From an uncultured Planctomycetales bacterium (GTDB lineage Bacteria; Planctomycetota; Planctomycetia; Isosphaerales; Isosphaeraceae), in the NCBI GenBank assembly GCA_903926465.1, contig CAIYJE010000160.1, positions 62,001-126,000 on the forward strand: DNA of 64,000 nt, read 5' to 3'. Positions within the stretch are counted from its first letter, which is position 1, and each line of letters begins with the position of its first letter. A program made the translations under genes and the position numbers. Below, piece by piece: positions 48,956-63,916 of this stretch. Below the pieces are notes generated by a model that made no database searches, had not been told where the DNA came from, and saw nothing but the letters and a program-made list of their open reading frames with translations.

Positions 48956-49840
48956 ATGCCCTTGAAAATTCTCTTCATTGGTGACGTCGTCGGCTCGCCT
49001 GGACGCAAGGTTGTGGTTCAATCCCTACCCCACCTGCGTGCGCGGCTCGGGCTCGATCTGGTCATTTGCAATGCGGAAAACGCAGCGGGCGGCTCTGGAG
49101 TTACCCTGAGCTGCTATGACGATCTGCGGGATGCGGGCGTGGATGTGTTCACGCTGGGTGACCATGCTTACCGCAAGGATGATATCCACGACCTCTTCGG
49201 GCGTTCGGATCGGCTTTGTCGCCCTGCGAATTTTCCCCCGGATGCTCCTGGTCCAGAAATTGTGCGAATCAAGACCACCGGTGGAGTGCCCGTTGCCGTT
49301 TTCACGGTACTGGGTCGTGTATTCATGAACCCGGTAGACTGCCCGCTCCGGGCCAGCGATCGTATCCTTGGACCACTGGCAGAATCCTACAAAGTGATCG
49401 TCTGTGATATTCATGCGGAAGCGACCAGTGAAAAGCAACTGCTCGCCAGATATCTCGACGGCCGGGTTTCCGCTGCGCTTGGTACGCACACGCATGTGGC
49501 AACCGCCGACGAACAAATTCTTTCAGGCGGTACCGCTTTTCAGACAGATGTAGGCATGACCGGTCCTTACGACTCGGTCATTGGCCGTCGCTTCGACCGG
49601 GTGCTGACAAGTAATCAGACGGCCCTTCCGCAACACTTTGATGTTGCCACGGGTGACCCCCGGCTCTCGTCCACGCTGCTTGAGATCGATCCAGAATCTG
49701 GTCGCGCCTTGTCAATTCGCAGAGTCATGCTGGATAAGCATCAGATTGATCGCATTGTTCGTCAGGCCGACTGGATCCCAGAGCTTCCTTGCCCATCGTT
49801 CGAATCTGCAACATCGCCTTCAAACCGTCGAGAGTCTTGA
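48956..49840 (+). CDS. ymdB: YmdB-family metallophosphoesterase
   Basis: 294 aa of the TIGR00282/YmdB family, which in Bacillus hydrolyses 2',3'-cyclic nucleotides and affects RNA turnover and biofilm choice. Metal motifs: FIGDVVGSPGR (Asp), NAENAAGG (Asn-Glu), TLGDHAYRKDD (family usually TxGNHxWD, so Asn is Asp here), HAEATSEK and GTHTHVATADE, then GTAFQTDVGMTGPYDSVIG. Its pairing with rny is conserved across phyla and supports a joint role in RNA metabolism. The 3' end overlaps the convergent phosphotransferase gene by 21 bp. Confidence 0.88.
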   Translation: MPLKILFIGDVVGSPGRKVVVQSLPHLRARLGLDLVICNAENAAGGSGVTLSCYDDLRDAGVDVFTLGDHAYRKDDIHDLFGRSDRLCRPANFPPDAPGPEIVRIKTTGGVPVAVFTVLGRVFMNPVDCPLRASDRILGPLAESYKVIVCDIHAEATSEKQLLARYLDGRVSAALGTHTHVATADEQILSGGTAFQTDVGMTGPYDSVIGRRFDRVLTSNQTALPQHFDVATGDPRLSSTLLEIDPESGRALSIRRVMLDKHQIDRIVRQADWIPELPCPSFESATSPSNRRES

Positions 49841-50818
49841 CCGCATCCAGCGAAGACTACGCCCAAGGCCCGAAGCCACGGTCTCGCTCGATTCAAAAAC
49901 TCGATGTTCAGCAAACGCCCAGCGCGTCCAGTTGGCTCCGGCAAGTAACGCGGTGGATTGTTCGAGAACTGGAATCAACTCCAGGGCCGAATCTGGCAAG
50001 CGATAGCTCTGGCAATAGGCTTGGGTCAGCGCGAATCCAGCTTCTTGGCTATCGGGCCACCAATCAAGTTGTAACCTTGCCAGGTCAAAGGCCACCGATT
50101 CCAGATCCATAGCCCCGAAATCGATCAGACCCTGAAGCTGCTCGTCCTGAAACAGCCAGTGATCCGCGCGACAATCTCGCAAACAAGGCTGGAGCACGCG
50201 AGGCACCAGAACGTGCGGTGCCAGCCTGGCAAGGATCGCTTCGAGCACACCCCTGGCCCACAAGATCCATTCTCTGGCCAGTTCGGCGGTGGTAGCACCT
50301 TCGCTGGCGTTGATCGCCATTGCTAGTTGATCCAGGCCACCATCCCTGAGGGATCTGAGCAATTTCATCCGGTGCGCCAGGCTTGGGCTAACGCCTACAC
50401 TCTGCAGTCGGTCGAGTGTTCGATGAACCGAGGCCAGGGTGGAAGCCGCTACCTCAACCTGAATTGGGCCTGGGTTTGTGGAAATTGCCCGGCCAGGTTT
50501 CCAGGGTTCGAGCTGGTGCAACCGCCCCGCGTGGGCCGTGAACGTGGTCAAGAGTTGAGATTTGAGCGGAGCTGCAACAGGTTGAATGTGGTTTGCGAGT
50601 TCGAGGACCCAGGTATGAATTTGCTGGAGGCGGCTCTGCGGCATATCGGCAGGCCAGGAGCGGAGCAACAGTCGACCACAAGGCGCGTCATAGGCAATCA
50701 GGCGGGCTCCGCTCAGGCCGCCGGCATTACCCAGGTGTTGCAGTGGCCCCAAAGGCTGACAATGCGCCGGGTATTCGCTGATGATTTGCGTGGATTGTTC
50801 CAGCGATTCGAATTGCAT
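49820..50818 (-). CDS. Aminoglycoside-phosphotransferase-fold kinase, divergent
   Basis: 332 aa from the ATG at 50818 with AGGGAGTGGAG upstream; a GTG at 50824 is less likely. The C-terminal half shows the APH/choline-kinase active site in altered form: LRDCRADHWLF stands where HGDxxxxNxLF is usual (catalytic Asp present, the Asn replaced by His) and GLIDFGAMDLESVAFDLARL matches the metal-binding DFG-like motif. The N-terminal lobe is poorly conserved. A small-molecule kinase is likely, but the substrate is unknown. Its 3' end overlaps that of ymdB by 21 bp. plsC lies upstream on the same strand (48-bp gap). Confidence 0.72.
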   Translation of the reverse strand: MQFESLEQSTQIISEYPAHCQPLGPLQHLGNAGGLSGARLIAYDAPCGRLLLRSWPADMPQSRLQQIHTWVLELANHIQPVAAPLKSQLLTTFTAHAGRLHQLEPWKPGRAISTNPGPIQVEVAASTLASVHRTLDRLQSVGVSPSLAHRMKLLRSLRDGGLDQLAMAINASEGATTAELAREWILWARGVLEAILARLAPHVLVPRVLQPCLRDCRADHWLFQDEQLQGLIDFGAMDLESVAFDLARLQLDWWPDSQEAGFALTQAYCQSYRLPDSALELIPVLEQSTALLAGANWTRWAFAEHRVFESSETVASGLGRSLRWMRSRLSTV

Positions 50819-50866
50819 CTCCACTCCCTGCGAGAGAGAAATGCCACGAGCTTGATGTGTCGTGGT

Positions 50867-51604
50867 TCAGGAATGGGATTCCGCGGCGTGCTTCAACTTC
50901 AAATCGCTGATTGCCTTCATAATCCGGAGCGAGGCTTGCTCTAGGATCTCGGGATCTCTTAGGGCTGCTGAGCCTCGAAATTCTTCGAGCTCGATGGGCG
51001 GGCCAAACACAACTTTTGCCGCCGAGGGAGTCCACAGCGAACGAGGGATTTCATTGGTCTCTGGTGTGCCCGCGATGTAGGCGGGGATCACGGGAACCTT
51101 CTTCTTGAGAGCAACCCAGGCAGCACCGGGGCGGGCCGGTAAGAACTCACGGCCAGCCGCTGGGTTAATGCGCCCTTCTGGGAAAATCGGAACCACATGG
51201 CCAGATTCGAGGGCTCGCAAAACGGCCCGGGTAGCACCCAGGTCTCGTCCATCACGTTTGACCGGAATGCAGCCTACCGCTTTGCAGAACCAATGAATGA
51301 CAGGCAAGTCATAATATTCTTGTGCAATGACAAAGCCGAGCGGACGGCGGGTGGCGGACTGCAAGACCAGGTGGTCAATGCCGCACGTGTGGTTGGCCAC
51401 CAGCAATACTGGGCCTTCCGGTGGCAGCGGGTCACCGGCCGGAACTTCCAGTTTGTGGAAGAGTCCGCAGTAGAACCGGTTCAGATACCAGACGAGCCGA
51501 AGGTACCATGGAACCTCTAGCGGCTTCATCTCGGCTCGAGGTCCCAGTAGCCAGGGAGACAGGAGCAAAACCGCACTACTGAAAACGCCAAAGGCAAGGG
51601 ACAT
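50867..51604 (-). CDS. plsC: 1-acyl-sn-glycerol-3-phosphate acyltransferase-like (PlsC)
   Basis: PlsC-type enzymes add the second acyl chain to lysophosphatidic acid at the inner membrane. 245 aa from the ATG at 51604 (a TTG at 51613 is less likely). A hydrophobic N-terminal segment (FGVFSSAVLLLSPWLLG) anchors it. Motif I is NHTCGID with His72 and Asp77 (HX4D); motif III is FPEGRI. KKKVPVIPAYIAG gives the fourth block. All catalytic elements are present. The kinase-like gene follows on the same strand, so they may be an operon; plsC could also act on other lysolipids. Confidence 0.87.
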   Translation of the reverse strand: MSLAFGVFSSAVLLLSPWLLGPRAEMKPLEVPWYLRLVWYLNRFYCGLFHKLEVPAGDPLPPEGPVLLVANHTCGIDHLVLQSATRRPLGFVIAQEYYDLPVIHWFCKAVGCIPVKRDGRDLGATRAVLRALESGHVVPIFPEGRINPAAGREFLPARPGAAWVALKKKVPVIPAYIAGTPETNEIPRSLWTPSAAKVVFGPPIELEEFRGSAALRDPEILEQASLRIMKAISDLKLKHAAESHS

Positions 51605-51758
51605 GGTGCTCAATCGCTCAAGATTCTGAATCGCGATGGGCTACTTTGTATCTCTGGAATCGAGACGATCCTGGAGAGCCCGTGATTGATTTCTATTTTT
51701 GAATTCTAGTCTGCCGCTCTCTCAGGCGTCGATGGATTGACCCTTCGAACGTCCAAGA

Positions 51759-54768: not shown

Positions 54769-54966
54769 GAAATATCTCTGTTGTGGAAAAAGAATGTTGT
54801 GACCAATCTACCCGCGATCGGAACCGTGTTTGGAACGCCTACGGAGGTGCGGTTGTCAGGCGTCTGATGATTTTATCGAGTTTCGCAAGGAATGGGACCG
54901 ATAATTTATTGTTGAGCGATGTCCTGGCAGGATGCCCGGATCAAGCAGTCCGAAAGGAGGCGGAGA

Positions 54967-56226
54967 ATGACCAGTCGAGTTTATATTATTGGTCATTCGG
55001 CCATCACCTGCCTGGGCGCGGACGCACGGAGCACGTTTGAGGGACTGGTCGCCGGCCGCTCGGGAATTCAGGCTCACGAAAATTTACCGGCGGATCGCTT
55101 CCTCCAGAACATTGCCGGCCGGGTGGCAGAACTTCCGGCCCTGCCTGAAGGCTCAGACTCAAGCCTGAGTCGACTGAACGCCCGCTTTCTGCATCTCGCC
55201 GTGGCAGCCGCACGAGCGGCCATGGCCAGCGCCGGTCTAGACTCCCTGCCCGATTCTTTCCGCGAGCGATTTGCCGTGGTGGTCGGTTCGGCCTTTGGTG
55301 GCCTCGACCTTTTGGAAACCGAACGCGAGGCAGCGCAGAAGCGAAAAAATCTCGCAACCAGCCCGTTCCTGATCCCAGGCATGATCATCAATCAGGCGGC
55401 CGGTCAAATTGCCCAGCAACTCCAGGTTTTTGGGCCAAGTCTGGCTCCGGCTAATGCCTGCGCCACCGGGGGATATGCCGTGGCCGCCGGCGCTGAGATG
55501 ATTCGCTCCGGAACGGTCGATCTGGCGATCTGCGGCGCCTCTGAGAGCGCCTTTACACCTGAAATCGTGAACGGTTTTGCAACGATGCGTGCCCTGTTAG
55601 GACGAAAGGCTGGTGATCGTTCCCTGACAGATCCTGCTCAAGCCAGCAGGCCATTCAGTGTGGATCGGGCCGGCTTTGTTATGTCGGAAGGGGCAGCCAT
55701 GCTCGTGCTCGCGAGCGAGCCGACCGTTCGAGCGCTCCACCTCGTTCCCCAGGCGGAACTGATTGGCTGGGCGTCCAACTCTGACGGATTCCACATGGCG
55801 ATGCCCGATACGAAACGGATCAGCCGTTGTCTGCAACTGGCCATGACTCATGCCGGCATTCGCCCTGAAGAAGTCGACTACTACAATGCTCATGGCACCA
55901 GCACCACGGTGAACGACCGGACAGAAACAGAGGCGATCCGGGAAGCCTTTGGGCCTGCGGCTGAATCTCTGGCCATTAGCTCCATCAAGGGCGCACTCGG
56001 CCATAGCCTGGGTGCGGCCTCGGCCATCGAAGCTGCGTGCTGCGTGCGGTCTCTGCTTGAACAAACCGCCCCACCAACCATTAACCATATTCCCGATCCT
56101 GAATTGACTCTCGATTACATTCCGAACGAAGCTCGTTGCATGCCGCTGAATGTTGCCATGTCCGCCGCTTTTGGATTTGGTGGAACCAATAATGTCCTTC
56201 TCTTCCGGAGAGTTGGAAATGAGTGA
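54967..56226 (+). CDS. Beta-ketoacyl-ACP synthase (FabF-like)
   Basis: Condenses acyl groups with malonyl-ACP to extend a chain. The ATG at 54967 is chosen for the strong AAGGAGG upstream; it gives 419 aa. Catalytic residues are present: Cys165 (ANACATGG), His309 (NAHGTSTTVND), Lys341 and His346 (IKGALGHSLGAA), matching FabF spacing. A GFGGTN end motif is also present. Being followed directly by its own ACP (8-bp overlap) and two acyltransferases suggests a special chain rather than general fatty acid synthesis. It could be a polyketide-like or very-long-chain ketosynthase; the sequence alone cannot decide. Confidence 0.9.
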   Translation: MTSRVYIIGHSAITCLGADARSTFEGLVAGRSGIQAHENLPADRFLQNIAGRVAELPALPEGSDSSLSRLNARFLHLAVAAARAAMASAGLDSLPDSFRERFAVVVGSAFGGLDLLETEREAAQKRKNLATSPFLIPGMIINQAAGQIAQQLQVFGPSLAPANACATGGYAVAAGAEMIRSGTVDLAICGASESAFTPEIVNGFATMRALLGRKAGDRSLTDPAQASRPFSVDRAGFVMSEGAAMLVLASEPTVRALHLVPQAELIGWASNSDGFHMAMPDTKRISRCLQLAMTHAGIRPEEVDYYNAHGTSTTVNDRTETEAIREAFGPAAESLAISSIKGALGHSLGAASAIEAACCVRSLLEQTAPPTINHIPDPELTLDYIPNEARCMPLNVAMSAAFGFGGTNNVLLFRRVGNE

Positions 56227-56476
56227 TCCTCGTTTGCTTGCCTCGGTCATTGAACAGGTGAGACTCGTCTGCAAAGTCTCTCCCACGGTGTTGATCACGG
56301 AAGATAGTCAGTTCGTCGATGACCTTGGAATCGACTCGCTCGACCTTGTCAGCCTGTTTCTCACGATTCAGGATGAATTCTCGGTTGAGTTAGACGATGC
56401 CGAACTCACGACAATCAAGACGGTTGGTACGCTTTGTTCGGCAATCTCTAGCAGCCACGGAGTGGCTGCAGCCTGA
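56219..56476 (+). CDS. Dedicated acyl carrier protein
   Basis: 85 aa from the ATG at 56219, which overlaps the ketosynthase 3' end by 8 bp (translational coupling; GGAGAG upstream). The DDLGIDSLDLVSL motif carries Ser40, the phosphopantetheine attachment site. Helix-rich and acidic, as ACPs are, with a slightly longer, Ala-rich C-terminus. It differs from the usual housekeeping ACP (DLGADSLDTVEL), so it is probably specific to this cluster. Confidence 0.9.
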   Translation: MSDPRLLASVIEQVRLVCKVSPTVLITEDSQFVDDLGIDSLDLVSLFLTIQDEFSVELDDAELTTIKTVGTLCSAISSSHGVAAA

Positions 56477-56515: not shown

Positions 56516-57505
56516 ATGCATCGTCGGGCCCTCAAATATCGTCGTTTAATGCTCCAGCTTCTGTTCCCGGTTTTAAAACAACTGCCGGCGGATGCCGCCG
56601 CACGCATGGTCTCCAGGATCGGCGAAATTGAGTACTCGCTTGTGCCAACCTTGAGGCACAGATTTCAAGAGACGCTGAACCGAGCGGCCGATCACCTCGA
56701 TGCGAGCTGGGATGCCAACCTTGTTGGTCGTCAGCTTGCGGGTAATCAGGTTCGGTGGCGGGCTCGTGACTTGCTAGTGGATGGCCGATCTGAGGCCGAT
56801 TTTGAACGAGTTGTCCGCGTGGACGGTGCGGAACATCTTCAAAATGCCCACGCGCTCAATAAGGGTGTGATCTTGCTCGGGAACCATTTTGGTGCGCATC
56901 TTATGCCCGCGCACTGGGCGGCTCGCAAGGGATACCCCTTACGGTTGTTCATGGAGCGACCTCACCATGTGTCTCGGATTCTCTCCAGGGAATTCGATAC
57001 CGTGGGCCCGCTCGGCCAGAAAGAGTTGTTCATTTCCCGACGTTCAGACCCGGCAGACTCGGCTCGTTCGGTTTTGCGTGCGGCCCGCGTTTTGAAGTCG
57101 GGATACGTGATCTTCATTGCCGGCGATGTTCGGTGGAACGACAAGCACACCGCCTCGGTCGAATTCCTGGGCCGTCCTTGCCGGATCTCCACCACCTGGG
57201 TCACCCTGGCTGCGCTGAGCGGTGCGGCTGTGGTGCCAACCTTCTGCCACATGGATGTGAACGGGACCCATGAACTGAGTTTTCTGCCGGCGTTCCATGT
57301 GGCTTCCAAGGCCATGGCTCAAGGGCTGGCGGAACCGCTGGTACGGAACTTTCTGGCGGAAATTGAACGGCGGATCAAGATTGACCCGGCCAACAGTAAT
57401 GACTATCTGTTCTGGTCAGAGCGAGATGACCCAGCATACGCCAAGCAACGGCTGACGGACGTACCACTTACGGCTCCACCACAGAGAGGTAGGTCGGCGG
57501 CATGA
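56516..57505 (+). CDS. LpxL/HtrB-like lipid acyltransferase, copy 1
   Basis: 329 aa, ATG at 56516 with GGAGG ten bases upstream. The fold is the LpxL/HtrB (pfam03279-type) acyltransferase, which transfers acyl chains from ACP to lipid A or related lipids at the inner membrane. The key motif, normally HFGNWE, reads NHFGAHLMPAHW: His124 is kept, but the acidic residue five places on is Leu129. Other landmarks are GVILLGNHFG, RLFMERPHHVSRI, GYVIFIAGDVRWND and AALSGAAVVPTF. Copy 2 overlaps its stop by ATGA, so the two are coupled. The product is unknown. Confidence 0.8.
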   Translation: MHRRALKYRRLMLQLLFPVLKQLPADAAARMVSRIGEIEYSLVPTLRHRFQETLNRAADHLDASWDANLVGRQLAGNQVRWRARDLLVDGRSEADFERVVRVDGAEHLQNAHALNKGVILLGNHFGAHLMPAHWAARKGYPLRLFMERPHHVSRILSREFDTVGPLGQKELFISRRSDPADSARSVLRAARVLKSGYVIFIAGDVRWNDKHTASVEFLGRPCRISTTWVTLAALSGAAVVPTFCHMDVNGTHELSFLPAFHVASKAMAQGLAEPLVRNFLAEIERRIKIDPANSNDYLFWSERDDPAYAKQRLTDVPLTAPPQRGRSAA

Positions 57506-58461
57506 GGCCCTGGTCGGCTCCCTTTCGCAAACGTACGGTGAGATTCTTACTCCCGCTGCTCACGCGCATGGAGCCGGACCGCGCATCTCGAATGATTTCA
57601 ACCTTGGGTGTCTGGGAAACGAATTTGCACCCAGCACGCCGAAAATCATTCCAACGGGCGTTCTCTGACCTACGCGATCGCCTGGGGTGCGACTGGAATA
57701 TTGAATCTTTGGTTCCCAAGGTCATCAGTAATCTCTGGCGCTGGGACGCTCGCGATTTTCTTCTGGAAAAATGTGACGAGGCAACTCTGGGTCGAACCCT
57801 GGAACTTGTCGGGACGAACTATCTGGATGAAGCGTTGGCACAAAAGCGGGGCGTCCTGCTTCTCTTCAACCACTTCGGCCCCTTTCTGATTCCCGCGCAC
57901 TGGATTGTTCGTCAGGGCCATACCCTACGATGGTTCACAGAGCGGCCCAGGAACATTTCTCCAACGGTTGCCAAGACATTTCAGACTGAGGGTCCACTCG
58001 GGCAAAAAGGCCTGTTTCTGACCCGGCAGATGAATTCTTCACAAGGTGGCGCAGCCCTCAGACGCGCCATTCGAATGCTTCAGTCTGGCATCATTGTGCA
58101 GGCCGCCGGCGATGTTCGCTGGGAGGGTCCACGATGTGTCAACGCTCACTTTCTTGGGCACGATTTCTCGTTCGCAACCAACTGGGTAAGCCTGGCGGCA
58201 CTCTCTGGGGCCGCGGTGCTACCTGTTCAATCCGTATTGCTGCCAGGCGGAAGGTACCGCGTGAAGTTTGAACCCCATGAACTGGTACCCCGAACCGCTG
58301 CCTCTGATCCTGAGCAAGCTCGATACTGGATTGCGCGAAATCTGGCTCGCGTGGAAAAGTGCATTCGACAATACCCAGACAATTGTGGCGAGTACGCCTT
58401 CTGGCAACCCACTCAAGCCAAACACGAGGATCGTTTGCAATATCAGCCGCAGCCGGCCTGA
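57502..58461 (+). CDS. LpxL/HtrB-like lipid acyltransferase, copy 2
   Basis: 319 aa, starting in the ATGA overlap with copy 1. It shares the same landmarks: GVLLLFNHFGPFLIPAHW (His124, with Leu129 instead of the acid), RWFTERPRNISP, GPLGQKGLF, IVQAAGDVRWEGP and AALSGAAVLPVQ. The two copies clearly arose by duplication, and both keep PAHW with a second His. Two coupled copies imply two acylations or a heterodimer. It follows the KAS and ACP genes and precedes the membrane phosphatase-like gene by 54 bp. Confidence 0.8.
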   Translation: MRPWSAPFRKRTVRFLLPLLTRMEPDRASRMISTLGVWETNLHPARRKSFQRAFSDLRDRLGCDWNIESLVPKVISNLWRWDARDFLLEKCDEATLGRTLELVGTNYLDEALAQKRGVLLLFNHFGPFLIPAHWIVRQGHTLRWFTERPRNISPTVAKTFQTEGPLGQKGLFLTRQMNSSQGGAALRRAIRMLQSGIIVQAAGDVRWEGPRCVNAHFLGHDFSFATNWVSLAALSGAAVLPVQSVLLPGGRYRVKFEPHELVPRTAASDPEQARYWIARNLARVEKCIRQYPDNCGEYAFWQPTQAKHEDRLQYQPQPA

Positions 58462-58515
58462 TATCGCCTTCCTTGTCTGACTCAACGCTTTCAATCGACC
58501 TGATCTGGAGTGCTG

Positions 58516-59973
58516 ATGCCGTTCCTACCTTCAAGCGAACCGCAACCGGCCGCCCTCCAGAACCGCTGGCTTCAGCGCTTCTGGCCCTGGCTGATTCTCT
58601 TTTGCCTTCTCATAACGGCCGTGTGGGAATACCGGGTGTTTGATCGAGGGTTCGACTCCGAGTACCCAACCCTGGTCCGGAATACCTATAACCCGCTGCC
58701 GCCCGCCGTTTATCGCCTGGCCGAACCCGGAGATACCCTGGACCGAGCTGCACTTTATGCCGCCGCAGCCGGATTTGTAGCCTCGCTCAACGGCTGGTGG
58801 ATGAGCTGGAAGAAGAACCGCTCCTCGGCCCTGTGGCCTGTGGCCGCTGCTCTGTTGCTGGCCGCTGGTTGGCACGCCGCCACCCCCTGGCCTACCTTTG
58901 ATGGCTGGTACGGCTGGAACTGGTACTCACTCTCCGATCCCGCGCTTCCCACATCCACTCGCCTGACTCTGAGTGCTTTTCTGTTCGCCCTCATCGCCTG
59001 GTCTCTCGGCTGGATCTTTGCCGCGCGGAAGAATTTGAGGCGTTACCTCGCAACGGCCTGGCGCCATCGCTCCCTTGGCTTGATGGTTATTGGCGGTATC
59101 GGAATCTTCTGGCGTATGGCTCACCTGCCCGATGGTGAGCCTACCGGATACTGGTCTGGCTGGGGATTTGGAATGGGCCTGATTGCCATTGGCATTGGCC
59201 TGCTTCGCGTGGTTCCCGCCTGGCCAGAAACCAGCTGGGGACGGATTGCACTGACAGGCAGCTGGATTGCCGCTTCCCTGGCGCTCTGCGTGGCGGGTCG
59301 AGCCGTGATCTGGTACCACCGCCCACTCGAACGGCTGCGGCCCATCGTCCCAGGCAAGATCTACCTCAGCGCCATGCCAAGATATCGGGGTCTTGAAATC
59401 GCCCATGAGCGACATGGATTCCGCACAATCATTGATGTGTTCAATGAAAACACTGATCAGCGTTCCCCTTATCTGGAAGACGAGATCCGGTTTGCCAGAG
59501 AGCACCAGATCCGGTTTCTGGCTGCGCCTGGAGACACCGCTCAGTCCAATGCGTTTCTTGACGAGACCTTGCGGGTGGCCCAAGATCCGAACGCCTGGCC
59601 AATTTTGGTTCATTGCCATGGCAGCATGGACCGCTCTCCCGCCTGGATGGGGATCTATCGCTTCTTGGTCCAGAAGCGTCCGTTACGTGAGATCCTGATG
59701 GAGATCGAGAGACATCGAGGCTCAAGACCCAAGGCGCTCGTCACGCTGCTCTACAATCGCGTGCTTCCAGCGCGTGCTCCAGAGCAATTCCAGGCCGATC
59801 CCACGGCCCAGGAATTGCGGCGTAATGCCCAGGGAAGTGATGACCCGTTTGTCGCCGAGTACCTACCCGAGCCCCCCGGTGCCAGCCACCCGCCGAACAG
59901 TTTTACGCTAGAGACAACCGCCCCAGGCCAAGCCCGAGAGTCGGGGTCGACCTTGACAGAGACGGCCAGATAG
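58516..59973 (+). CDS. Seven-helix membrane protein with a Cys-based phosphatase domain
   Basis: 485 aa from the ATG at 58516 (GGAG eight bases upstream). About seven hydrophobic segments (near residues 25-37, 80-93, 107-120, 152-170, 188-200, 215-232, 247-265) precede a C-terminal domain. That domain carries VHCHGSMDRSPAWMGIYRFL, a Cys-X5-Arg phosphatase loop (Cys367, Arg373), and an upstream Asp-rich stretch (TIIDVFNENTDQ). It resembles dual-specificity or PTEN-like lipid phosphatases. The substrate is unknown; a lipid phosphate is plausible given the neighbours. The tail is Pro/Glu-rich. Confidence 0.75.
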   Translation: MPFLPSSEPQPAALQNRWLQRFWPWLILFCLLITAVWEYRVFDRGFDSEYPTLVRNTYNPLPPAVYRLAEPGDTLDRAALYAAAAGFVASLNGWWMSWKKNRSSALWPVAAALLLAAGWHAATPWPTFDGWYGWNWYSLSDPALPTSTRLTLSAFLFALIAWSLGWIFAARKNLRRYLATAWRHRSLGLMVIGGIGIFWRMAHLPDGEPTGYWSGWGFGMGLIAIGIGLLRVVPAWPETSWGRIALTGSWIAASLALCVAGRAVIWYHRPLERLRPIVPGKIYLSAMPRYRGLEIAHERHGFRTIIDVFNENTDQRSPYLEDEIRFAREHQIRFLAAPGDTAQSNAFLDETLRVAQDPNAWPILVHCHGSMDRSPAWMGIYRFLVQKRPLREILMEIERHRGSRPKALVTLLYNRVLPARAPEQFQADPTAQELRRNAQGSDDPFVAEYLPEPPGASHPPNSFTLETTAPGQARESGSTLTETAR

Positions 59974-60019
59974 ATACATTCAGCGGCCTTATCGGCCTGC
60001 TTTGACAGATCGAGGTCCC

Positions 60020-61312
60020 ATGGCCATTCCCGTTACGCTCAGTGCTGCCGGAAAGCGTGTTGGACATTCGCCCATCAGCGACCTGATGGCGCGTGCGCTT
60101 GCGAATCCATCGCTGATTTCGCTGGCAGCCGGATTTGTCGATCACGGTTCGCTGCCCGTGGAAGCCACCGCCTGTGTCACCTCTGACATGTTGAGCGAGC
60201 CCGCCGAGGGGCGAAGGGCGTTGCAGTACGGAACCACGCGCGGCGATAAATCGCTCAGACGTCAGTTGCTGGCATTCCTGGAACGGGAAGACGGGCTCCC
60301 GCGTGGTCAATTCGACTCGCTGTTTGATCAGATGATTGTGACCACCGGTTCTCAGCAACTTCTGTATCTGATTGCCGAAGCGTTGCTGGACCCAGGCGAT
60401 ATCGTTCTGGTTGAATCACCAACTTACTTCGTTTTTCTGGGTGTTCTTGAAACTTTTGGCGCCAGGGTTATCGGTATCGAGATCGACGAAGGCGGCCTTC
60501 GAGTCGATGCGCTGGAAGACACGCTTAGAGAACTGGATTCACGCGGCGAACTGGGACGGGTCAAGCTCATCTACACGGTGAGCGAGCACAGCAACCCCAC
60601 CGGGCTCAGCCTGGCAGCAGACCGGCGCCAGAAACTTGTGGAAGTTGCCAGAGCGTGGTCTCGGTCTCATCAGATTTTTATTCTGGAAGACGCAGCCTAT
60701 CGGGGCCTGACGTATGAGGGAACAGAATCGCCGAGCGTATGGTCTTACGACCAGGCGAAAGACACCGTGATTCTGGCCCGCACGTTCAGCAAAACCTTCA
60801 GTCCTGGCCTGAAGTGCGGCTTCGGACTCTTGCCGGCCTCGCTCTCGGAAACCATTCATTCACTGAAAGGGAACCACGATTTTGGTTCTTCTCATTTTAC
60901 CCAGCAAATCCTTGGACGCGTGGTGAGCGAGGGGTACTACGAGACCCAGATCGAGCGGCTCCGCACCATTTACTCACGGAAACTCAAGGCCACCCTTGAT
61001 GCGCTCGACGAGCACCTTGGCAAGTATGGTGCGGAAGTGCGATGGACCAAGCCGCGTGGTGGGCTTTACGTATGGCTGGGTCTGCCGGCCGGCATCGATA
61101 CCAGCCGCAATGGTCCATTCTTCGCTCAGTGTCTTGAAGAAGGGGTGCTTTATGTTCCAGGAGATTATGCATACGCCAGTGAACCTGGGCCTGTATGCCG
61201 CTCGGATGCTCGGCTCTCATTTGGCGTAACGGGCGAGGACGGAATTCGCGAGGGGGTTCGCCGGTTGGCAACCGCCCTGAAAACCGTGTCTGCACGTTCC
61301 GGACTTGGATGA
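60020..61312 (+). CDS. PLP-dependent aminotransferase, fold type I
   Basis: 430 aa from the ATG at 60020 with GAGG upstream. It resembles the class I/2-aminoadipate-aminotransferase group: LAAGFVDHGSLP at the start, QYGTTRGDKSLRRQLL, TTGSQQLLYLIAEALLDPGD, SPTYFVF, YTVSEHSNPTGLSL, ILEDAAYRGL and ARTFSKTFSPGLKCGF with the PLP Lys (TFSKTFS). Arg-binding RLSFG appears near the end. It lacks the N-terminal DNA-binding domain of MocR regulators, so it is an enzyme. The substrate is unknown. It lies between the membrane phosphatase-like gene and LptF/G-like genes, all on the plus strand. Confidence 0.88.
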   Translation: MAIPVTLSAAGKRVGHSPISDLMARALANPSLISLAAGFVDHGSLPVEATACVTSDMLSEPAEGRRALQYGTTRGDKSLRRQLLAFLEREDGLPRGQFDSLFDQMIVTTGSQQLLYLIAEALLDPGDIVLVESPTYFVFLGVLETFGARVIGIEIDEGGLRVDALEDTLRELDSRGELGRVKLIYTVSEHSNPTGLSLAADRRQKLVEVARAWSRSHQIFILEDAAYRGLTYEGTESPSVWSYDQAKDTVILARTFSKTFSPGLKCGFGLLPASLSETIHSLKGNHDFGSSHFTQQILGRVVSEGYYETQIERLRTIYSRKLKATLDALDEHLGKYGAEVRWTKPRGGLYVWLGLPAGIDTSRNGPFFAQCLEEGVLYVPGDYAYASEPGPVCRSDARLSFGVTGEDGIREGVRRLATALKTVSARSGLG

Positions 61313-61440
61313 TGACCAGGTCCAACGCTCGACAGGATGACACAAGTTCGCGGTTGGTTGGGTGAGGTCATGGCGGATATTGGGAGGCCGGGAGTGCCGG
61401 CAGCCCAGGGGTGACCTGCAAGGAAGCGGGAGGCACGCCG

Positions 61441-62658
61441 GTGCGGTTCGGGATCCTCGAACGCTACGTCATGGGCCAGCTTTTCCGCACGTTTATGCTT
61501 GCGCTGGTAACCGTTACGACCATTTTTTCGTTGTTCGTCATCATGGCCGAGGCCACTCGGCAGGGGCTGGCACCCCAAGAAGTGATGAGGGTTCTCCCGT
61601 ACCTTGTGCCAGGGAGCTTGCCATACACCATTCCGGTAGCCATGCTCTTTGCCGTCTCCGTTGTTTACGGGCGCATTGGCGCAGATAACGAGGTGATGGC
61701 AATCAAGGCGGCCGGGCAGAGTGTGTGGACGGTTTTAAATCCGGCCTTGATCATGGGTGCTGTGCTCAGCCTGGTCTTGTTTGGCTTGAGCAGTCAGGTC
61801 ATACCCCGGGCGAATAACATTTTCACGCAACTCATCTTTGGGTCGATTGAGGATGGGTTCTACCGGATCTTGAAAAAAGAGCGTGAAATCAGCGATCCAG
61901 GGCTAGATTTCTTCATTCAGGTTCGTGATGTGAAAGATCGAACGCTTGTCGATCCTGTGATCAAACACCGTGCCCCTTCTCCGCCCAACCCACCGAACAC
62001 CTATGACCTTACGGTCAGAGCCAGTTCGGCGCGGATCCGGTTTGATATGACCAAGCTCATGGTCACCATTGAACTAGAGGACCCAGAGACCACGGGGCAA
62101 TCTGATAAGCCGTTCCTGTTCTGGATCAATGGCCAGCAAGCACTCCAGTACCCATTGCCCAAGGCGCCTCGTGCCCCTGAACGCCGGGTGCAGCAACTGA
62201 CGAATACCGAGATCAACGAAAACCAGGTCGAGTTCAAAAGAAAGATCGCGGTCGAGCGTAAAAAACAGGCCGCCAAGGCAGCCATGTCGATTGCCGCAGG
62301 CCAAATTCAAGCGGTGGAGTGGCCGGCCGTTCGAAACTCGAGCCTGGAATACCCCTACCTTCACCAGAAATACCGCGAACTTGAGACCGAGAAGTACTTG
62401 CGAATTGCACTCGCGGGTGGAGCATTCTTCTTCACACTGCTGGGAGCTCCCGTTGGCATCCTTCTGGCCAAGCGAGACTTTTTGAGCGCGTTTATCAGCT
62501 GCTTCATCCCGATCATCCTCGTCTATTACCCAGTGGTGCTGATGGGCATCAACCTGGGCAAAGAGGGGGTGGTTCCCCCGATGATCGTCTTCGGCGGCAA
62601 CGCACTGCTCGGCCTGATCGCCGTCTTCTTCGTGCTCCCGCCTGTCAGAAAACACTAA
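61441..62658 (+). CDS. LptF/LptG-family permease, copy 1
   Basis: LptF and LptG are the membrane subunits that, with LptB, extract lipopolysaccharide from the inner membrane. The GTG at 61441 is chosen because GGGAGG lies nine bases upstream; it gives 405 aa starting VRFGILERYVMGQLFRTFML, as expected. Helices: about residues 18-40, 55-75, 95-120 and three near the C-terminus (FFFTLLGAPVGILLA and neighbours). Between them is the large periplasmic beta-jellyroll region. LPYTIPVAMLFAVSVVYGRI and DNEVMAIKAAGQS are YjgP/YjgQ signatures. The second copy follows 43 bp downstream. Confidence 0.87.
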   Translation: MRFGILERYVMGQLFRTFMLALVTVTTIFSLFVIMAEATRQGLAPQEVMRVLPYLVPGSLPYTIPVAMLFAVSVVYGRIGADNEVMAIKAAGQSVWTVLNPALIMGAVLSLVLFGLSSQVIPRANNIFTQLIFGSIEDGFYRILKKEREISDPGLDFFIQVRDVKDRTLVDPVIKHRAPSPPNPPNTYDLTVRASSARIRFDMTKLMVTIELEDPETTGQSDKPFLFWINGQQALQYPLPKAPRAPERRVQQLTNTEINENQVEFKRKIAVERKKQAAKAAMSIAAGQIQAVEWPAVRNSSLEYPYLHQKYRELETEKYLRIALAGGAFFFTLLGAPVGILLAKRDFLSAFISCFIPIILVYYPVVLMGINLGKEGVVPPMIVFGGNALLGLIAVFFVLPPVRKH

Positions 62659-62701: not shown

Positions 62702-63916
62702 ATGGTCATGACCATCCTCGATCGCCAGCGTTACTGGGCTTTCCTCAAGGCCTATGTCGTTTGCTTCGTCTCGCTTGTGGGACTGTACATCGTCATTGAC
62801 GCGTTCACCCAGCTTGATGAGTTCTTGAAGATCAGCGACGGCACGGGCAGCCTGCTGAAATTGATGGGCCGCTACTATCTGGTGCGGATCAGCCGCTTCT
62901 ATGACCAGCTCTGCGGTGTGATCACCCTGCTGGCCGCCATCTTCACCGTTACCTGGATGCAGCGCAACAACGAACATATTGCCATGATGGCTGCCGGAAT
63001 CAGCACGCACCGAGCGATTGTTCCCGTCATTGTCTCTTCGTGCCTGATCAGCCTGGTGGCCATCGTGAACCAGGAATGCGTCATTCCCCAGGTGGCCGAA
63101 GAACTTCAGCGCACCCCCGATGACGACGGTAACCGCAAGGTCAAGACCTATAGCCGACGAGACGTCAACGACATTCTCATCCACAGTTCATTCGCATATC
63201 GCAGTGATCTCTCGATCGAGCCATTCAACGCCACCTTCCCGACCAATCGTTACGGGCTCATGCTCCACGTATCGGCCCGCACCGCCCAGTACATTCCCCA
63301 TGACGCCACCGGTACCCCTTTTCGGGGTGGTTGGCTCATTCGTGCGGCGCAGCTTTCTCCCGCCGATGCGCCCGTGGATGGCACCGTCATTACCAGAATC
63401 GATCCCCAGCCCACCGCAAACCTGCTGAGCCTTGGCATGGGCAAAACTCTGGCCGATGCTCTGGTCGAAGCTTTTCCTGAGCCTCGAAATCATTCGGCTG
63501 GCCAGGATACGGGCACCTATTTCTTGCGCACCAATCTCACGTTCCTGACGTTGATTCAAAGCCTTCAGTGGTACCAGTATGCTGCCACTTCCGATCTGGT
63601 CAGGGCCACCCAAGATCCTACCTTCACGGCGGAACGGCAGGAAATCTCGGTGTTCTTGCACTTCAGGAACCTGCGTCCACTCCTTTCGCTGGTCATGCTC
63701 GGGCTGAGCCTACCCCTGGTTTTGGGCGGCTATGGTCGGAACATGTTCATCAATCTTGGTTTCTCGCTCGGTACATCCGCCATCTTCTACACGGCCATCT
63801 TCATCACCCAGTGGTTGGGGAACAACCGGATGCTCAGCCCAGAACTGGCAGCCTGGGCTCCGTTGATCGGCTTCGGTAGTCTGGCCGCCTCGCGCTGGGA
63901 TCGTATTCGTACCTGA
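62702..63916 (+). CDS. LptF/LptG-family permease, copy 2
   Basis: 404 aa, ATG at 62702 with GGAGG ten bases upstream. The same layout as copy 1: N-terminal helices (YVVCFVSLVGLYIVIDAF), the signature NEHIAMMAAGISTHR, a large extracytoplasmic domain, and three C-terminal helices. It would form the LptF-LptG pair with copy 1. lptB, lptC and lptA are not in the window. It may belong to the cluster beginning at the ketosynthase, or be a separate LPS-transport operon. Confidence 0.85.
   Translation: MVMTILDRQRYWAFLKAYVVCFVSLVGLYIVIDAFTQLDEFLKISDGTGSLLKLMGRYYLVRISRFYDQLCGVITLLAAIFTVTWMQRNNEHIAMMAAGISTHRAIVPVIVSSCLISLVAIVNQECVIPQVAEELQRTPDDDGNRKVKTYSRRDVNDILIHSSFAYRSDLSIEPFNATFPTNRYGLMLHVSARTAQYIPHDATGTPFRGGWLIRAAQLSPADAPVDGTVITRIDPQPTANLLSLGMGKTLADALVEAFPEPRNHSAGQDTGTYFLRTNLTFLTLIQSLQWYQYAATSDLVRATQDPTFTAERQEISVFLHFRNLRPLLSLVMLGLSLPLVLGGYGRNMFINLGFSLGTSAIFYTAIFITQWLGNNRMLSPELAAWAPLIGFGSLAASRWDRIRT

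Follow-up and report, generated by a model that had tools for sequence, protein, structure and literature searches.

Whether the histidine of lipid A acyltransferases is partnered by the glutamate of the HX4E motif or by an aspartate later in the protein is not fully settled. The later acid is favoured by PatA, by the LpxM structure and by VexE. In PatA, Glu200 lies 2.8 Å from His126, the E200A mutant is inactive and D131A retains 37% activity, and its authors inferred that HtrB and MsbB also use the block-3 acid (PMC4792965). In LpxM of A. baumannii, a bond of 2.6 Å joins His122 to Asp192, and Glu127, 7.6 Å off, forms an ion pair with Arg159 (PMC6286764); Asp131 of PatA is likewise paired with an arginine (Arg164), with Tyr83 contacting both (PMC4792965). 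VexE has a tyrosine at the position of the motif acid and is still active, its function depending on His466 and on Asp532, which corresponds to Glu200 of PatA (PMC9597891). The LpxL data, on the other hand, favour the HX4E glutamate. In the E. coli enzyme, E137A causes a ~3000-fold drop in activity and alteration of the conserved aspartate (D200A) one of only 15-fold; Glu127 is also critical in LpxM, and the E127A (LpxM) and E137A (LpxL) mutants are almost dead (PMC6286764). LpxJ is an active late lipid A acyltransferase in which the HX4D/E motif is absent across 2,842 homologues and for which a His61-Asp132 dyad has been proposed (PMC6148475).

Two overlapping genes and an aliphatic residue at position 129

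The window, by which we mean the whole stretch of 64,000 nucleotides that was analysed, carries two adjacent open reading frames related to these enzymes, with the following features.

56516 to 57505, plus strand: copy 1, a group A LpxL-like acyltransferase of 329 aa (ORF, PF03279) with His124, Leu129 (HFGAHL), Glu147 and Asp204
56885 to 56917, plus strand: copy 1 motif region, residues 124-134 (HFGAHLMPAHW), read directly and corresponding to PatA H126 to W136 by profile alignment
57125 to 57127, plus strand: copy 1 codon for Asp204, aligned by profile with PatA Glu200 and LpxM Asp192
57502 to 58461, plus strand: copy 2, a second, diverged group A LpxL-like acyltransferase of 319 aa (ORF, PF03279) with His124, Leu129 (HFGPFL) and Asp204
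57871 to 57903, plus strand: copy 2 motif region, residues 124-134 (HFGPFLIPAHW), read directly
58111 to 58113, plus strand: copy 2 codon for Asp204, placed by alignment

The stop of copy 1 and the start of copy 2 overlap by four bases (ATGA), and AGGAGG lies 5' of the copy 1 ATG. Both proteins match PF03279 (Lip_A_acyltrans, the LpxL/LpxM/PatA superfamily) above its curated cut-off of 22.3 bits, copy 1 scoring 56.3 and copy 2 55.5 bits. Neither reached any of the NCBIfam LpxL/LpxM equivalog models, with at most 38 bits overall and at most 36.8 bits for the lipid A models, whose cut-offs are at least 281, and the PatA model (NF005919, PIM acyltransferase) gave 38.1 bits, below its cut-off of 209. 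AlphaFold2 models were confident for copy 1 (pLDDT 93.3, pTM 0.89) and copy 2 (pLDDT 93.6, pTM 0.90), and a Foldseek search with the former returned 14 significant PDB matches, every one LpxM or PatA, headed by LpxM 5knk (1.3e-9) and PatA 5f2z (2.9e-9).

The motif region is NHFGAHLMPAHW in copy 1 and NHFGPFLIPAHW in copy 2, and direct reading of both frames bears out the starting observation of the first-pass annotation, that His124 is kept and position 129 is leucine in each. The HX4E/D motif of canonical LpxL/LpxM is absent from both, Leu129 sitting opposite the motif glutamate of LpxM (5KN7) in a phmmer alignment. The same substitution runs through a subfamily of 80 proteins from Isosphaeraceae genomes, consisting of 46 members of group A (both copies and 44 more) and 34 paralogues at a different locus, group B. 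Aligning these relatives revealed no normal acid at position 129, which is L, M, V or I in 80/80; His124 and Gly126 are equally invariant. The annotation had also remarked on a PAHW segment common to both copies, and so it is, but across the 80 relatives only His133 (75/80) and Trp134 (79/80) are conserved, while Pro131 and Ala132 vary. Of the 94 canonical PF03279 proteins from the same bacterial family and phylum that have an aligned motif, 92 carry E or D at position 129. The ordinary LpxL of Isosphaeraceae has HFGNWE or HYGNWE, with glutamate in all 26 aligned sequences, and the source genome also encodes such a protein (C178, HFGNWE).

Elsewhere in the phylum there are two true acid-less cases, with lysine (L045) or arginine (L064) at the motif position and aspartate kept at the block-3 position. 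The latter (L064:1366-3441, minus strand), from another Planctomycetia family, combines an LpxL-like domain reading HFGAAR with an N-terminal stretch that is sulfotransferase-like by eye. A further candidate outside the subfamily, L049, was rejected as a regex artefact, its actual motif being HYSNWE.

Asp204 and the second polar centre

The first-pass annotation went on to conclude that the catalytic acid was missing or relocated, and here our alignments contradict it. The subfamily profile finds PatA as its best PDB profile match (E 3.4e-32) and also LpxM (E 1.1e-20). Aligned to PatA, H124 falls on H126, L129 on D131, W134 on W136, E147 on E149 and D204 on E200; aligned to LpxM, His124 falls on His122, L129 on E127 and D204 on D192. 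Asp204 is invariant in 125/125 aligned sequences, 80/80 from the subfamily and 45/45 canonical. By alignment, then, the catalytic acid is not missing: Asp204 of both copies corresponds to the acid that serves the histidine in the closest solved enzymes, and the PatA-type combination of a histidine and a block-3 acid is found in His124 and Asp204. Considered with the data from PatA, LpxM and VexE, this indicates that what has gone is the second acid, the one paired with an arginine.

The arginine partner was probably lost along with the motif acid. In profile alignments its position falls on residues 163-164, and a conserved arginine is absent there; the loss is probable and not proven because one method, MAFFT, opens a gap of 12 residues and sets Arg175 opposite a conserved canonical arginine, and the methods disagree over residues 150-172. 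The canonical Glu-Arg centre appears instead to have been rebuilt, judging from a helix in which position 84 is arginine in 79/80 of the subfamily against glutamate in 43/45 canonical relatives, position 85 is aspartate in 80/80 against a hydrophobic residue in most canonical relatives, and position 81, just three residues away from 84, corresponds in the alignment to Tyr83 of PatA. We would tentatively go further, and suggest that in a subfamily perhaps confined to Isosphaeraceae the whole second centre (Glu84, the motif glutamate and the arginine) may have given way to Arg84-Asp85 and an aliphatic residue at 129, in enzymes that might attach to an envelope glycolipid an unusual acyl chain from their own beta-ketoacyl-ACP synthase (KAS) and acyl carrier protein (ACP), for export by a single LptF/LptG.

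Another reading of these residues is that the acid function has itself moved to a subfamily-specific position, Asp85, Glu147 or Gln147, or His128 or His133 in an altered dyad, giving a mechanism unlike that of PatA or LpxM. The invariance of Asp85 and the exchange at position 84 speak for it, as do the conservation of His133, the alignment of position 81 with the PatA tyrosine that touches Asp131 and Arg164 (PMC4792965), and the fixed difference at position 147, which is Glu in 46/46 of group A and Gln in 34/34 of group B. We nevertheless think it unlikely, since the retained Asp204 suffices as an explanation, the changes at 84-85 could merely rebuild a second polar pair, and the aligned counterpart of Glu147 in PatA is Glu149, which has been proposed to bind the acceptor. 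His128 was rejected as a general substitute for the acid: copy 2 has Phe there, two members of group A have Asn and nine of group B have Tyr.

Gene neighbourhood, subfamily range and selection

The two copies stand within an operon, the other genes of which are these.

54919 to 56226, plus strand: FabF-like KAS, the first gene of the operon (PF00109/PF02801; TIGR03150, 377 bits; Cys, His, His motifs), syntenic in relatives
56219 to 56476, plus strand: ACP with a DSL attachment site (PF00550); the listed ORF starts at 56150, and the likely start at 56219 overlaps the KAS stop
58510 to 59973, plus strand: protein with a hydrophobic N-terminal half and a weak tyrosine-phosphatase-like C-terminal domain (PF03162 match below cut-off)
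60002 to 61312, plus strand: PLP-dependent class I/II aminotransferase (PF00155), syntenic
61411 to 62658, plus strand: LptF-like LPS export permease (PF03739, 147 bits)
62702 to 63916, plus strand: LptG-like LPS export permease (PF03739, 103.5 bits)

The order KAS, ACP, acyltransferase(s), phosphatase-like membrane protein, aminotransferase, LptF and LptG is kept with minor losses at most group A loci. At most of them an ACP adjoins the acyltransferase, these ACPs bearing the DSL site, and the phosphatase-like protein (58510-59973) is beside the acyltransferase in many, not all, genomes. Through the operon both acyltransferases are linked with an ACP and a KAS of their own and with the only LptF/LptG pair of the genome (its sole PF03739 pair); lpxB is also present in the genome. 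Upstream in the window, 50867-51613 and 49820-50824 (both minus strand) encode a PlsC-type acyltransferase and an aminoglycoside-phosphotransferase-like kinase, and many relatives keep these genes in synteny with the operon.

Group B genes (loci L136-L174) occur in a different setting: at 27/27 compared loci they follow genes for a multi-pass membrane protein, a pair of SGNH/GDSL-type proteins and a DltA-like adenylating enzyme (AMP-ligase); the acid-less group B paralogue of the source genome is at G000:C8:5952-6887. The membrane protein, of ~480 aa, has no Pfam match and is MBOAT-like only by eye. The gene set as a whole resembles a Dlt-type export-acylation cassette and is not yet characterised.

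Together, the gene contexts of groups A and B favour active acyl chemistry. That the proteins are instead pseudoenzymes, binding acyl-ACP or lipid but not catalysing transfer, might be supposed from the disappearance of the motif acid in all of them and from the fate of the LpxM E127A and LpxL E137A mutants (PMC6286764). This seems decidedly improbable when His124 and Asp204 persist in every copy, and the acyl-pocket Trp134 is also kept, in a subfamily diverging down to about 24% identity, when gene order with ACP and KAS is conserved, and when VexE and LpxJ work without the motif acid (PMC9597891, PMC6148475).

Searching with copy 1 found relatives in 36/59 related genomes, every one in its own family, and searching with copy 2 found them in 44/45 genomes of Isosphaeraceae; against named genomes copy 1 had only two relatives. 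Aquisphaera insulae was a named match, which points to Isosphaeraceae as the family. A 298-genome sample of the class, with 44 family genomes set aside, yielded matches in just 7 genomes, all of them weak and partial, and our literature searches did not find a description of an acid-less Isosphaeraceae subfamily. Phylogenetically, groups A and B together split from canonical LpxL (support 100/100) and group A is a clade (100/100), while group B was not recovered as a clade of its own. Close pairs have dN/dS of about 0.06-0.4, and close relatives are under purifying selection. Conservation in 80/80, the separate canonical LpxL, these dN/dS values and the tree lead us to conclude that the substitution is old, fixed and maintained. 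The earlier supposition that it is not decay was sound, given purifying selection, confident folds and an aliphatic residue throughout the subfamily; that constancy also puts Leu129 beyond chance.

Copy 2 falls inside group A but is not sister to copy 1, and its placement is uncertain because its branch, at 1.94, is longer than any other in the tree. Among 45 family genomes, only the source genome was seen to have two group A genes in tandem; recent tandem duplication was considered as the origin of this pair and rejected on the tree position of copy 2, subject to the same uncertainty. Lineage-specific decay, or a sequencing or annotation artefact of two redundant copies, could appeal to that long branch and to the absence of an orthologous tandem neighbour from other genomes, but is most improbable given a change common to 80/80 relatives, the low dN/dS and the intact frames and confident folds of both copies, and for the subfamily dN/dS, invariance and folds rule out a decay or pseudogene reading. 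One group A frame (L155, G036:C1:4950779-4951746) is broken into two overlapping pieces in a genome that is 100% complete, which is a frameshift or sequencing error.

Proposed mechanism and comparison with known systems

We consider that both copies are probably active, ACP-fed PatA-like enzymes that use a His124-Asp204 dyad and have lost the second, Arg-paired acid; conservation of the two residues, together with the precedents of VexE, LpxJ and PatA, is best read as pointing to an active His-Asp enzyme. His124 and Asp204 would lie close together, with Asp204 orienting His124, and His124 would deprotonate an acceptor hydroxyl that then attacks the thioester. From the neighbouring genes we infer that the acyl chain is probably taken from the ACP encoded just upstream, possibly after extension by the adjacent ketosynthase; it would enter a hydrophobic tunnel lined by Trp134 (PatA Trp136). 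The same genes suggest as the probable acceptor an envelope lipid that contains sugar; it might be LPS/lipid A or a glycolipid related to it, and LptF/LptG of the same operon perhaps export it. As a counterpoint, E. coli LpxL depends more on its HX4E acid than on D200 (PMC6286764), and if this pattern is general one would expect the subfamily proteins to work slowly or to rely on a substitute acid.

Calling a catalytic acid missing from HX4E/D alone is thus unsafe in the PF03279 family. Because this natural set is large, under selection and equipped with the His-Asp pair alone, the two acids can be tested apart, and if the second centre has indeed been rebuilt, the two dyads proposed for LpxM would here be naturally separated. 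The basic chemistry is ordinary, but the subfamily provides a starting point for tracing an envelope acylation pathway in Isosphaeraceae that has yet to be characterised; the outer-membrane glycolipids of this bacterial family seem to have received little attention.

PatA, the phosphatidylinositol mannoside acyltransferase of Mycobacterium (PDB 5F2T), shares with the copies its fold, catalytic histidine and later acid (Glu200 for Asp204), as well as the proposed acceptor-binding Glu149 (Glu147) and acyl-pocket Trp136 (Trp134). It differs in keeping Asp131, paired with Tyr83 and Arg164, where both copies have Leu129 and no aligned conserved arginine, and its donor is CoA, whereas copies 1 and 2 have an ACP gene alongside. 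LpxL/HtrB and LpxM/MsbB (PDB 5KN7) are alike in PF03279 membership, fold and the His122-Asp192 pair, but have the HX4E motif that the copies lack, and a counterpart of the LpxM Glu127-Arg159 pair is not seen in the profile alignments. VexE, the Vi-antigen UDP-GlcNAc C-6 acyltransferase, parallels the copies in that its motif acid is replaced while the histidine and block-3 aspartate are kept (PMC9597891), although it includes a TPR domain at its N terminus, is part of a capsule locus and carries an aromatic rather than an aliphatic residue at the motif position. LpxJ resembles them in lacking the HX4D/E motif (PMC6148475), but is a DUF374 protein and not a member of PF03279.
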